Below are positions 21,084-26,322 of a stretch of DNA of 64,000 nt, one piece after another. The stretch spans positions 1 through 64,000 of the forward strand of contig NZ_AUAC01000009.1 of NCBI RefSeq assembly GCF_000428525.1, read 5' to 3'. Below the pieces are notes generated by a model. The model saw nothing but the letters and a program-made list of their open reading frames with translations. It made no database searches and was not told the DNA's origin. The stretch is from Hellea balneolensis DSM 19091. Its GTDB lineage: Bacteria; Pseudomonadota; Alphaproteobacteria; Caulobacterales; Maricaulaceae. Position 1 is the first letter of the stretch. The number at the start of each line of letters is the position of its first letter. Position numbers and translations under genes: made by a program.

Positions 21084-21142
21084 GTAAGCGATGATGCGCG
21101 GCTTGCCGCGCTCATTAGGCCGTTAAGCGGCCTCGCGAACTT

Positions 21143-21163
21143 ATCCCCGACTTGATCGGGGAT
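21143..21163. repeat. REP-like palindrome (ATCCCCGA/TCGGGGAT)
   Basis: A perfect 8-bp stem around a 5-nt loop, followed by CCA. The same kind of sequence (CCCCGn stem, GGGGATCC edge) recurs at 22391, 23205 and 23253. It resembles the dispersed short palindromes common in alphaproteobacterial intergenic DNA. Confidence 0.6.
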
Positions 21164-21198
21164 CCACAAACCACCCGACTTCTAGGTCAAAACAGTCA

Positions 21199-22390: not shown

Positions 22391-22407
22391 CCCCGCCTTG
22401 AGCGGGG
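22391..22407. repeat. REP-like palindrome (CCCCGC/GCGGGG)
   Basis: A 6-bp stem with a 5-nt loop (CTTGA), related to the palindrome at 21143 and sharing the CTTGA loop. Confidence 0.5.
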
Positions 22408-22423
22408 CTCTCCAAAAATTAAA

Positions 22424-22450
22424 AAACCGCCCCATTCGAGGCGGTTTTTC
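22424..22450. terminator. Bidirectional terminator
   Basis: AAAACCGCC and GGCGGTTTT pair with an 8-nt loop, flanked by A and T runs. It ends both the MscS gene and the convergent SpoIIAA-like gene. Confidence 0.85.
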
Positions 22451-22480
22451 TTTGTTTTAAAATTAGGGAATTAACTACGA

Positions 22481-23074
22481 TTAAATCGCGCGGAAATCAC
22501 CCCAAGGGTTTTTGCTCTCACTTGCTTCGCGTTTCGTGCTTGCGGCCTCTATCGTTTTCATTTCCGAAGGACTGACGAGGGTTAGCTCCGTTGGAGCGGG
22601 ACCTGCGGAAGCATGAATGGTCTCAGCCGTTTCGTTTGAAGCTGTCTCGCGTGGGGCCTTATCCTGTGTGAGTGGTTGATCGCGCAACCACTTCTCGGCC
22701 ACATCATCGGCGTCCAGCCCGAATGTGTTCAGCTCTAGCCCCGGAATAACTGCGCCTTCGACCTTGGCCGAATTACGCAAAAACATAGAGTCGGTGAGAA
22801 CGGCACATTTATCCGCGCCCAAATTTTCCTCCAGAGAGGCATGGCGCAGCATCCGCCCAACCTGTTTAAACTCGCCGCTTATCTCGCTTAGATCGGCAAA
22901 GTCATCTTTGGCCATATCCACGCGGATAGAAAAATTATCATTCGCCTCTACAACCTGATCAATCCACTCGAGGCCTGCCTCCAGCGAATCCTTCGCCATC
23001 GCGCCTTTGACAGTGATGTGCGCAACATTGTTATTAAAAGTTAAGTCCAGGTTCTCGGTCTTGAGAGGCGTCAT
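22481..23074 (-). CDS. SpoIIAA-like (STAS-related) protein with disordered tail
   Basis: 197 residues. Residues 1-125 match the SpoIIAA-like/DUF3478 fold: ITVKGAMAKDSLEAGLEWID, a central FSIRVDMAKDDFADLSEI and SMFLRNSAKVEGAVIPGLE. The remainder is Glu/Ala/Thr-rich and probably disordered, with a conserved-looking end (KNPWGDFRAI). Proteins of this type are thought to bind lipids or act as STAS-like scaffolds, but the function is unknown. Single gene between two terminator/repeat regions. Confidence 0.7.
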   Translation of the reverse strand: MTPLKTENLDLTFNNNVAHITVKGAMAKDSLEAGLEWIDQVVEANDNFSIRVDMAKDDFADLSEISGEFKQVGRMLRHASLEENLGADKCAVLTDSMFLRNSAKVEGAVIPGLELNTFGLDADDVAEKWLRDQPLTQDKAPRETASNETAETIHASAGPAPTELTLVSPSEMKTIEAASTKREASESKNPWGDFRAI

Positions 23075-23204
23075 AAATAATTTTCCTTATGGTTGGTGAA
23101 TTAGCAAACGCATAGGGAGGCGGGATAGTTCCGAGAATCTGGGAGCTAAAGGAACGACAACTACCTCCTCGCCGCCACTCTCCCTGACATTCTCTCTTCC
23201 TATC

Positions 23205-23270
23205 ATCCCCGCGAGGGCGGGGATCCAGAAATGAACTAGGCTCTCAACTGGGTCCCCGCTTTCGCGGGGA
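23205..23270. repeat. Paired REP-like palindromes in opposite orientation
   Basis: Two hairpins: ATCCCCGC/GCGGGGAT at 23205-23224 and TCCCCGC/GCGGGGA at 23253-23270. Their outer edges are mirror images (GGGGATCCAG on one side, CTGGGTCCCC on the other). This head-to-head pairing is typical of REP doublets (REPIN/BIME-like). Confidence 0.65.
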
Positions 23271-23288
23271 TGAACGGTGAAGGGGGAG

Positions 23289-23507
23289 TCAAGTCACTCG
23301 GTAATGTCCGCGCCCTAAAAACTCTAATATTCCCGAATCCCTCAAAACCTGCAACTGTTGCCGAATTTTGGGTTTCGCGTGATTATTTTCTGGATGAAGC
23401 TCACTTAAATAATTCTCGAATTTATAAACATCATCTAACGTAAACTCAGCCTGATCAATTTCTTCTACGCAGTTTAGAACATCTAAGACCCATCCTTTTT
23501 TAGACAT
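23289..23507 (-). CDS. Orphan DpnI-C/DRP-type winged-helix domain
   Basis: 72 residues covering only the C-terminal winged helix of the DpnI/Dam-replacing restriction endonuclease family. The family pattern is clear: FTLDDVYKFENYLSELHP, then KPKIRQQLQVLRDSGILEFL and GRGHYRV at the end. In DpnI this domain reads methylated adenine DNA. The N-terminal nuclease domain is absent, no Shine-Dalgarno precedes the ATG, and no methylase is nearby. It is therefore either a remnant of a lost restriction gene or a free-standing methyl reader; I favour a remnant. It lies between REP-like palindromes and the GIY-YIG element. Confidence 0.65.
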   Translation of the reverse strand: MSKKGWVLDVLNCVEEIDQAEFTLDDVYKFENYLSELHPENNHAKPKIRQQLQVLRDSGILEFLGRGHYRVT

Positions 23508-23633
23508 TACAAAGCCGAGGCTGGAGGCGGAGATAACCGCTCGGGAAGAAGCGGCGAAGTCAGACGATGCCGAGATATTGCTCGAAAGCCTGAGAGCAGA
23601 GGTAAAAGCCGCGCGGGGTTAGGCTCCACTATT

Positions 23634-23670
23634 TACCTCATTGCAAGACTTGTTCTTGCAACCCATCTCC
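23634..23670 (-). repeat. Left 37-bp inverted repeat of the GIY-YIG element
   Basis: Read on the minus strand this sequence matches 32 of 37 positions of the repeat at 24007-24043, on the other side of the GIY-YIG gene. All five differences are transitions. It contains a perfect 7-bp hairpin (TTGCAAG/CTTGCAA, 7-nt loop). Weaker similarity continues outward. It ends 14 bp before the GIY-YIG start codon. Confidence 0.75.
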
Positions 23671-23684
23671 TGCAAGTAACGATT

Positions 23685-23978
23685 ATGAGCTACGGTTATG
23701 TTTACTTACTCTGCAACCGCAAAAACGGAACGTTGTATCTGGGCGTAACGGCCGATCTTTATGGGCGGCTACAGCAACATAGATCTCACTTTAATCCTAA
23801 GAGTTTCACAGCTCAGCATAATGCCACCCGTCTTGTTTGGTTTGAGCGGAATGACCTTGTCGCTGAGGCCATTGCTCAAGAAAAAACGATGAAGGACTGG
23901 CCGCGGCAGTGGAAGAAAAACGTGATTGAGCGCGATAATCCACATTGGGATGAACTTGTTTTGGATTATCACGATTAA
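23685..23978 (+). CDS. GIY-YIG nuclease (UPF0213/COG2827-like)
   Basis: 97 residues, a complete single-domain GIY-YIG endonuclease. YGYVYLLCNRKNGTLYLGVT supplies the GIY- and YIG-equivalent strands; R28 (YGRLQQH), H32 and the metal-binding glutamate in AIAQEKTMKDW complete the active site. The tail NPHWDELVLDY is typical of this subfamily, whose role is unsettled (a small genomic nuclease, distinct from UvrC and homing endonucleases with DNA-binding tails). It is enclosed by near-perfect 37-bp inverted repeats, which suggests a link between the nuclease and the spread of these repeats. No clear Shine-Dalgarno, though TGCAAGTAACG precedes it. Confidence 0.88.
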   Translation: MSYGYVYLLCNRKNGTLYLGVTADLYGRLQQHRSHFNPKSFTAQHNATRLVWFERNDLVAEAIAQEKTMKDWPRQWKKNVIERDNPHWDELVLDYHD

Positions 23979-24006
23979 CCGTAACGTTTTACGCGTTATG
24001 AGCACG

Positions 24007-24043
24007 GGAGATGGGTTACAAGGACAAGCCTTGTGATGAGGTA
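24007..24043 (+). repeat. Right 37-bp inverted repeat of the GIY-YIG element
   Basis: Inverted partner of 23634-23670. Its internal hairpin (TTACAAG/CTTGTGA) differs from the left copy by a compensatory change (G-C to A-T) plus one wobble, so the fold is kept while the sequence drifts. It starts 29 bp after the nuclease stop codon. Confidence 0.75.
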
Positions 24044-24066
24044 GAAATTGTAGAGTTGCACCCATA

Positions 24067-24093
24067 AAAAGCCGCCCATAAAGAGCGGCTTTT
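24067..24093. terminator. Terminator between the GIY-YIG element and pnp
   Basis: AAAAGCCGC and GCGGCTTTT pair with a 9-nt loop, flanked by A and T runs. Probably ends pnp on the minus strand and any leftward-facing transcript. Confidence 0.8.
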
Positions 24094-24117
24094 CGTATTT
24101 ATCCTTAGGAGAGCCGT

Positions 24118-26322
24118 CTACTCTTCTTCAGCTTTTTTGCGGTTGCGGCGTTTGCGCTTTGGTTTGTCACCGCCAGATTTTTTGTCGTCCTTATTATCTT
24201 CACGTGGTTCACGCGGGATTTCGAGACCTGTTTCTTGATCCACATATTTCATGGCGAGGCGGACTTTACCGCGGTCGTCAAAGCCCATCAGTTTGACATA
24301 AACTTCTTGGCCTTCTTTCAGATGGTCTGACGGGTGGTTGACACGTTCCGGCAGGATTTGAGAGACATGGACAAGGCCATCTTTCGGACCAAAGAAGTTT
24401 ACGAATGCGCCGAAATCGACAACTTTCACGACTTTACCTTTATAGATAACGCCAACTTCCGGCTCAGCCGTCAGGCCTGTAATCCACTCTTTCGCCGCTT
24501 CGATAGACTTTTTATCTGTGGACGCGATTTTGATGGTGCCGTCATCTTCGACAGAGACGCGGGCGCCTGTTGTATCAACGATTTCGCGGATGACCTTACC
24601 GCCTGTGCCGATGACGTCGCGGATTTTATCAACCGGGATTTTCATCGTTTCAATGCGCGGCGCAAATTCACCAACTTCTTCACGGGAGACTTCGAGGGCC
24701 TTGTTCATTTCACCCAAGATATGTAGACGTCCGGCATTGGCTTGTTCCAAAGCTGTTGTCATGATTTCCTCAGAAATCCCTGCGATTTTGATGTCCATTT
24801 GCAGTGACGTAATTCCTTCGGAAGTACCCGCCACTTTAAAGTCCATATCGCCAAGGTGGTCTTCGTCGCCAAGGATATCAGAGAGAACGGCTGTGTCGTC
24901 GCCTTCTTTGATAAGACCCATAGCGATACCAGAGACAGGGCGCTTAATCGGCACGCCCGCATCCATCATCGCAAGAGAGCAACCGCAAACTGTCGCCATA
25001 GAAGACGACCCGTTAGATTCCATAATTTCAGAGACCAGGCGGATGGTGTAAGGGAAATCTTCCGGTGTGGGGAGAACCGCCTGAAGCGCGCGCCAGGCGA
25101 GCTTACCATGACCGTGTTCGCGGCGCGATGTGCCGCCCATACGTCCGGCTTCACCGACTGAATAAGGCGGGAAGTTATAATGCAAAAGGAACTTGTTTTT
25201 AATCGTGCCTGTAAGCTGATCAACAAATTGCTCATCATCGGACGTCCCAAGCGTTGCGACGCAAAGCGCTTGTGTTTCGCCGCGTGTAAAGAGCGCTGAG
25301 CCATGTGTACGTGGAAGCATTCCGGCTTCGGAAACGATCGGGCGAACCTGATCTAGCTTACGGCCATCAATACGCTTTTTCGTTTTAATAACGGTTGTGC
25401 GGACTGTGGCGGATTCAATGGATTTGAACACGTCAGAGAAAACATTTTCTCTCATGCCGTCTTCATTCTCATCACTACGTCCAAGCGCGTCCCATGCCGC
25501 GCTACGAGTTTCACGAAGCGCGTCTTGACGCTCCATTTTATCTGTCAGCTTATAAGCCGCTTTGATGCCTTTCTCGGCAACTTTCTTCATGGCTTTCTTC
25601 TCTTCAGAGAGATCTGGCGCTGTAAATTCCCAAGCCGGTTTAGCGGCGGATTTTGCAAGTTTCTCAATCGCTTTGATCACGTCTTGGCAAGATTCATGAG
25701 CATACATAACCGCGCCGAGCATTTGCTCTTCGGTTAATTCTTTGGCTTCTGATTCAACCATCATGACCGCGTCAGATGTTCCGGAGACAACGAGGTCGAG
25801 CTCTGAGTCAGCCATTTCGTCAATTGTGGGGTTCAAGACATAGTCACCATCAATAAGACCAATACGGGCCGCCGCGATGGGGCCTTGGAACGGTACGCCT
25901 GAAATTGTCAGAGCGGCAGAGGCGCCGATCATACCAAGGATATCAGGCTCGTTTTCGAGATCATGTTGCAGAACGGTGATGACGACCTGTACTTCGTTTT
26001 TAAAGCCCTTCGGAAAGAGCGGACGTATAGGACGGTCAGTCAGGCGCGCGATAAGTGTTTCGCGCTCTGTTGGACGGCCTTCACGTTTAAAGTATCCGCC
26101 CGGCACTTTGCCGGCGGCGTAAAACTTTTCCATATAATTTACGGTTAGCGGGAAGAAACTCTGTCCCGGCTTTTCAGATTTTGCCGCACAAACTGTGGCA
26201 AGGAGAATAGTTTCCCCATAAGTGACGAGGACGGCCCCATCAGCTTGGCGTGCCATGCCGCCTGTTTCTAATTTGAGAGGACGTCCCGCCCAATCGATTT
26301 CTACTGTGTGTTTATCAAACAT
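24118..26322 (-). CDS. pnp: Polynucleotide phosphorylase
   Basis: 734 residues. Two RNase PH domains (from [19 protein letters not shown] and from [15 protein letters not shown]) are joined by a helical domain. The active-site region includes [23 protein letters not shown] domain follows ([18 protein letters not shown]), then an S1 domain ([20 protein letters not shown]) and a basic tail. It degrades RNA 3' to 5' with phosphate and is part of the degradosome. Last gene of the rpsO-pnp unit. Confidence 0.97.

Follow-up and report, generated by a model that had tools for sequence, protein, structure and literature searches.

A GIY-YIG nuclease gene framed by CGTC-class REP hairpins in Hellea balneolensis, a candidate autonomous REP element

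The REP-flanked unit behind pnp

The window is the 64,000-nucleotide stretch of Hellea balneolensis DSM 19091 analysed here (contig NZ_AUAC01000009.1, positions 1 to 64,000). It contains a unit of about 410 bp, which consists of two REP hairpins of the CGTC class and one small gene. The left REP (23634-23670, plus strand) points its tag outward and its CCA tail toward the gene, with weaker similarity starting at 23624. The right REP (24007-24043, minus strand) also has an outward tag, and weaker similarity reaches 24053. Between the two lies a GIY-YIG nuclease gene of 97 aa (23685-23978, plus strand), the sole ORF filling the unit according to the ORF list and a PF01541 search. No recognised transposase was found in the unit, in contrast to a classical insertion sequence. 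The unit is located directly behind a hairpin which is likely the pnp terminator (24070-24089). A separate observation is that this hairpin matches positions 23751-23770 inside the GIY-YIG gene in inverted orientation at 19 of 20 bases. A search of 22400-25000 gave no Rfam match at the gathering threshold.

The inverted repeat as a whole (23624-23670 and 24007-24053) covers 47 nt with 81% identity, and its 37-nt core agrees in 32 positions. The first-pass annotation had described a GIY-YIG nuclease gene framed by such repeats, with all five core differences being transitions and weaker similarity extending outward past both copies, and the sequence bears this out. The proposed hairpin, a 7-bp stem with a 7-nt loop, has to be corrected: both copies combine a CCTC tag and a CCA tail with an 8-bp stem and a 5-nt CTTGT loop, the closing A-T pair having been overlooked. 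The outermost A, which is paired in many members of the CGTC class, stands opposite a C in the window REP, and other copies of the window repeat family carry a CGTC tag instead of CCTC. Between the left and the right copy, two stem pairs differ by two-sided changes (G-C to A-T and A-T to G-C) and one T-A pair is broken to C.A. The G-C to A-T replacement noted earlier is thus real, and the conservation of structure claimed with it holds mostly, not fully.

These hairpins are recognised by R1, a covariance model of the 5-nt-loop REP type only, which matches the left REP at 23636-23665 with 41.9 bits (the left copy itself is among its training sequences) and the right REP at 24012-24041 with 34.7 bits. 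The repeat search and R1 also point to an inverted REP doublet without a gene, from another family, at 23201-23276 (TCATCCCCGCG..GGGGATCCAG and its inverse). It had been reported as a REP-like doublet 360 bp away with a different sequence, which is correct, yet it weakly matches the same model (23201-23227, plus strand, E 2e-4; 23249-23276, minus strand, E 5e-3). Because of this weak match and the different sequence, the doublet looks like another family of the CGTC superfamily. A degenerate lone REP that has lost its tag (TTATCCCCGACTTGATCGGGGATCCA; 21141-21166, plus strand) follows groEL, with a partial R1 match at 21144-21162 (model positions 7-25). The 72-aa ORF at 23292-23507 (minus strand) resembles the HTH at the C-terminus of a DpnI-like, methyl-directed restriction enzyme and covers positions 185-254 of 256 in the PADLOC model; it looks like a remnant, because the DpnI-like nuclease part is absent from the ORF.

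The nuclease protein

The ORF matches PF01541 with an E value of 6e-13 and 49.3 bits, against a cut-off of 22.6. The protein contains Y7, Y18, R28, H32, E66 and N85, which we take to be catalytic-type residues; each of them is kept in 146-158 of 162 relatives. Its predicted structure has a pLDDT of 93.8, and the top fold neighbour is the UPF0213 protein 1zg2 (E 3e-4). The only PDB entries related in sequence, with an E value cut-off of 0.01, are the UPF0213 proteins 1zg2 and 1ywl. These stand-alone GIY-YIG proteins resemble the window protein in size and fold, and the PDB tables give them neither a function nor a repeat association. The weak Foldseek neighbours are Slx1 (E from 0.03), UvrC-N (from 0.2) and I-TevI (1.1). 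Slx1, which acts on branched DNA according to PDB entry titles, and the UvrC N-domain have the GIY-YIG fold in common with the window protein, which contains none of their partner domains. The nuclease has no PADLOC match and a weak PHROG match to a homing endonuclease.

Repeats and paralogues in the same genome

The window repeat family is dispersed in the manner of the CGTC class. It recurs without a GIY-YIG gene at five further places of the genome, three of which are inverted pairs (C2:482353-482502, C6:12068-12199 and C2:238321), the last two with one altered arm. The others are lone hairpins tagged on either end (C2:558800 and C1:458087). Such solo repeats, in a genome that holds this GIY-YIG subfamily, were predicted by the earlier annotation. 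Counting all REP types, R1 finds at least 23 matches in this genome.

The nuclease has paralogues as well. Of nine PF01541 matches in the genome, eight are small genes (L001-L008); the ninth, L009, sits within a 696-aa frame and was kept out of the small-gene set. A further small gene, L165, is detected by the A1 profile, so that nine small GIY-YIG genes are known. Five of the nine (L002, L003, L004, L006 and L007) are surrounded by an inverted repeat with a score of at least 15, and the five hairpins are all different. Weaker repeats surround L005 (score 12) and L008 (14), and L001 and L165 have no flanking inverted repeat. The reading frame of L003 enters the downstream REP, which codes for its final residues. 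The RAYT-type transposase domain Y1_Tnp (PF01797) has no match in this genome, and four of the 31 searched genomes have any. Among the relatives, the copy number of the GIY-YIG family ranges from 0 to 9, with no copy in three congeners.

Recurrence of the gene within inverted repeats

The pairing is not peculiar to the window. A GTDB genome scan confirmed at least 571 relatives, from which the best 80 were kept, and additional protein matches from the genomes of 30 relatives were added. In the merged family set, 90 of 162 genes are flanked by an inverted repeat scoring at least 15, and the window gene scores 22. The proportion is 75/123 and 34/74 in two smaller, overlapping sets. The first of them excludes L009 and the duplicates from the own genome, as well as one of 124 genes because of short flanks; for the second, two of 76 genes were dropped. 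A strong inverted repeat is missing at the remaining 72 of the 162 genes, and the group of L165, L166, L164, L170 and their kin has none.

Controls show how rarely such an arrangement arises otherwise. Scores of 15 or more occurred at one of 439 random positions of the same span in the same loci, and in 23 of 615 cross-locus pairings. When intergenic gaps of at least 50 nt on both sides were demanded, a repeat of this score surrounded 11 of 28 GIY-YIG genes versus 0 of 185 other ORFs; only 28 genes of L028-L107 were eligible for this comparison because of the simple ORF calling. Hairpins fitting a strict REP definition are concentrated at the genes, with 206 in the 121 kb around 123 genes (none on the reversed sequence) and 66 in 1,182 kb farther off (seven on the reversed sequence). 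They lie close to the nuclease domain, at median distances of 33 and 29 nt from its ends. Strict REPs lie on either side of 54 genes; in 30 of these both tags point outward, in 13 both point inward, and in 11 the orientation is mixed. Most loci are alphaproteobacterial. Strong inverted repeats were likewise seen in contigs whose titles name Nitrospirae, Flavobacteriia, Parcubacteria, Saccharibacteria and Planctomycetaceae, five titles for which binning errors are possible because all these contigs are metagenome-assembled.

Correspondence between protein and repeat type

The loop type of the hairpin follows the phylogeny of the nuclease. On the protein tree, which has few columns and many unresolved forks, the loop type changes nine times versus a mean of 21.7 after shuffling, and none of 200 shuffles is as low. 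Loop labels were assigned by regular expressions to 62 of the 162 genes, leaving 100 out, and the label of L112 is doubtful. The Mantel correlation between protein and repeat similarity is weak (rho 0.157; 3/999 permutations as high). A divergent group of nine proteins, including L008 and L169, is mostly accompanied by another repeat, CCTCATCCTGAGG..TCTCGAAGGATG. A cruder tag classifier, applied to 101 genes with an inverted repeat score of at least 13, gave 52 GTCA, 8 GCTCA, 7 of the CCTCATCCTGAGG type and 34 none; its CCTC tag put the window copy in the last class.

The window gene belongs to a supported protein group of four together with L155, L114 and L113. The expectation that the window repeat surrounds another GIY-YIG gene is confirmed in L155, from a congener, where the same repeat family accompanies a protein 52% alike. 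It fails for L114, the closest relative of the window protein (62%), yet with a different stem. Stems therefore change faster than proteins. L113 lacks a strong inverted repeat.

Co-occurrence of REPs and nuclease across genomes

R1 was run on the genomes given the protein profile, and its counts are minimum values, with 150 or 38 candidates per genome having been scored. Among 31 genomes, the own genome and its relatives, REPs are present in 21 of 26 with a protein match and in one of five without. In a set of 192 genomes at the class level, 46 of the 57 with a strong nuclease match (E up to 1e-20) contain REPs versus 18 of the 135 without (odds ratio 27, p 3e-19, with kinship among the genomes ignored). 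The association holds without G000 and G020 (44/55 vs 18/135) and when any nuclease match at E 1e-3 is accepted (53/84 vs 11/108). The corresponding link of REPs to Y1_Tnp is weak (20/44 vs 44/148, odds ratio 2.0, p 0.07), and the link to the nuclease persists in Y1-negative genomes (31/39 vs 13/109). The first-pass suggestion that the unit resembles RAYT transposases and their REP sequences in its logic is well supported by this association and by the inverted repeats around 90 of the 162 genes.

The correspondence has exceptions on both sides. No R1 match was found in 11 of the 57 strong-nuclease genomes, R1 representing the 5-nt-loop type alone. REP matches occur without a detectable gene in G107 (at least 38), G118 (at least 37) and G207 (at least 26), where no nuclease gene was found even with a wider profile and E up to 10; these genomes may have lost the gene or may use another engine. 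In G057, the top nuclease match is a short fragment with in-frame stops.

Dispersal of units and hairpin pairs

Alignments were read base by base for one of eight same-genome pairs and, from 15 cross-genome pairs, for one pair and one trio. G024 holds two units which are 81% alike in unrelated DNA, the similarity starting with the left tag and exceeding the right one by a few bases. For L008 and L169, whose two genomes belong to a single genus, the common stretch measures about 400 bp, with edges at the CCTC/GAGG tags and unrelated flanks. The trio L120, L123 and L145 has little in common beyond the gene region, and its edges are not clearly on the tags.

Hairpin pairs are dispersed as well. 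In the relative G013, 17 REP pairs from different places resemble each other over the whole stretch between their tags and have flanks unrelated by eye, so that the inverted pair appears as the dispersed unit, as in REPINs. Inspection by eye of the 17 copies gave no target duplication or motif. These pairs (L253-L269) often combine two arm types, GGCCCG and CCCCCGG, and have a variable middle of near-constant length.

The empty sites anticipated by the earlier annotation have a counterpart on Sphingobium plasmids. The gap between fnrL and fixJ contains the unit in seven records, four of which were aligned; one aligned unit has a one-base gap in the gene and one has a shortened right arm. Two records hold instead a single double-tagged hairpin of the same sequence type as the unit, and three have no REP. 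The exact junctions are unreadable because the REP-free alleles hold unrelated short sequence. The double-tagged hairpin may have arisen from the unit by deletion or may instead have preceded it; a deletion between the two stems is tentatively favoured. At the window locus itself no empty site could be read: pnp has a strong match in 26 of 30 relatives, and the DNA behind it, inspected in eight, shows by eye no recognisable relation to that of the window. In plasmids of the R. tumorigenes group, the gene is present in all four aligned records, two of which have one extra REP pair. The flank search for Rhizobium CIAT894 gave no other record spanning most of the flank.

Relation to known repeat systems and nucleases

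The CGTC REPs form one of two great REP superfamilies, abundant in Alphaproteobacteria and present in Neisseria. In the 2013 work that defines them, dRS3 corresponds to CGTC-1, and the consulted sections report no association with transposase genes, so that a dedicated transposase is apparently missing (Di Nocera et al., PMC3733652). The characters given there agree with the window REP: a CGTC, TGTC or CCTC tag, a CCA tail, an 8-9-bp stem starting with A-T and a 4-5-nt loop (8 bp and 5 nt in the window), with mostly alphaproteobacterial and mostly dimeric occurrence. The difference is that the window REPs are paired with a GIY-YIG gene.

The closest working analogue of the window system is provided by REPINs, inverted REP pairs which are the proposed mobile unit (Bertels and Rainey 2011, PMC3116915). 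As far as the excerpts of that paper go, the REPIN-RAYT system, to which Nunvar 2010 (PMC2817692) reportedly also relates, is alike in having the enzyme gene beside its own REP type and several types per genome. It differs in that the window enzyme is a GIY-YIG nuclease, the tag is another one and Y1_Tnp is absent from the own genome. The GIY-YIG enzymes of the Caulobacter COG2827 genes are likewise small, stand-alone and several per alphaproteobacterial genome; in the searched text of that report, they are discussed as possible repair genes and repeats are not mentioned (PMC1839093). Within the open-licence PMC literature, represented mostly by titles and beginnings of abstracts, no link of GIY-YIG proteins to REPs or dRS3 was found, and a term search in the available text of the 2025 paper on RepRanger and of one on Bradyrhizobium REPs returned neither GIY nor nuclease. 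The novelty of the link is provisional, because the search covered open-licence PMC, outside of which lie subscription journals and preprints.

Interpretation and alternative explanations

The window unit is probably an autonomous REP element, in which REP hairpins with outward tags surround their own GIY-YIG nuclease gene, and the gene-less pairs of the same hairpins are, as part of the same reading, probably its non-autonomous relatives. For these widespread palindromic repeats of bacteria, whose partner has been missing, the nuclease is a strong candidate, and we infer that it cuts and spreads the REPs. On a wider scale, CGTC REPs including the neisserial dRS3 may well be mobilised by cognate stand-alone GIY-YIG nucleases, in a transposition-like process that combines a hydrolytic enzyme with hairpin recognition.

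In such a process, the nuclease would recognise its cognate hairpin when this is single-stranded or extruded, and would cut at the hairpin foot, in the tag or the tail. The cut would release or open the hairpin pair, with or without the gene, and host repair, replication or ligase would copy or join the pair at a new place. DNA hydrolysis by GIY-YIG enzymes involves no lasting bond between protein and DNA, so rejoining would have to rely on the host, in which the proposed chemistry differs from that of RAYTs.

Alternatively, movement of the REPs is due to a different enzyme, or to replication slippage on its own, and the nuclease gene travels as cargo within REP pairs. This is unlikely, even though G107, G118 and G207 contain abundant REPs with no detectable gene and 72 of 162 genes lack a strong inverted repeat. 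Against it stand the loop type, which tracks the protein clade, and the one genome whose five paralogues have five hairpins; none of 185 other ORFs is framed likewise, and the link to RAYT-type enzymes, with Y1_Tnp as the one alternative compared, is weak.

A homing-like process, in which the nuclease cuts gene-less REP pairs as its target and repair copies in the gene alone, is rather improbable. The position of the gene within REP pairs, the weak PHROG match, the weak fold similarity to I-TevI and the two Sphingobium alleles with one hairpin where others hold the unit are in line with it. Against it stand the three Sphingobium alleles with no REP at the site, unless it was lost, and the units of G024 and of L008/L169, which share gene and REPs jointly between unrelated flanks; the spread of gene-less pairs would also be left unexplained.

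It is very unlikely that the nuclease acts in host repair or in the response to phages, with the nearby REPs serving as its regulatory or target sites, given a copy number from 0 to 9 in relatives (0 in three congeners), the missing PADLOC match and the presence of units at unrelated sites with edges at or near the REP tags in G024 and L008/L169. Putative relatives in Caulobacter may speak for such roles: three COG2827 genes were noted without an assigned role, one of which has an SOS box (PMC1839093), and two GIY-YIG genes are under XRE factors and a phage regulator, with a defence role suggested for them in the accessible part of that study, where repeats are not mentioned either (PMC10688885). 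Ordinary transcription terminators or chance hairpins are hardly credible; the short distances from the domain ends would suit them, but the unpaired tag and tail, the near-identical arms, the copies elsewhere and the controls (0/185 ORFs, 1/439 random positions) speak strongly against them.

The interpretation as an autonomous REP element bears on a question that Di Nocera et al. (2013) left open, namely what mobilises CGTC REPs, for which the nuclease is a specific candidate with cognate pairs in many genomes. If it is true, an enzyme that is not a transposase joins the possible engines of miniature mobile DNA, and a common family usually annotated just as GIY-YIG nuclease obtains a functional hypothesis.

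Further loci in relatives

Two loci show other arrangements of gene and hairpins. Rhizobium bangladeshense (L059 2332-3266) has two tandem GIY-YIG genes, 94% alike at the protein level, near REPs of one type. In a Neisseria gonorrhoeae record (L241 2270-3610), a window-gene relative is found amid eleven dRS3-like hairpins, and the tags of the nearest hairpins point toward the gene on both sides.
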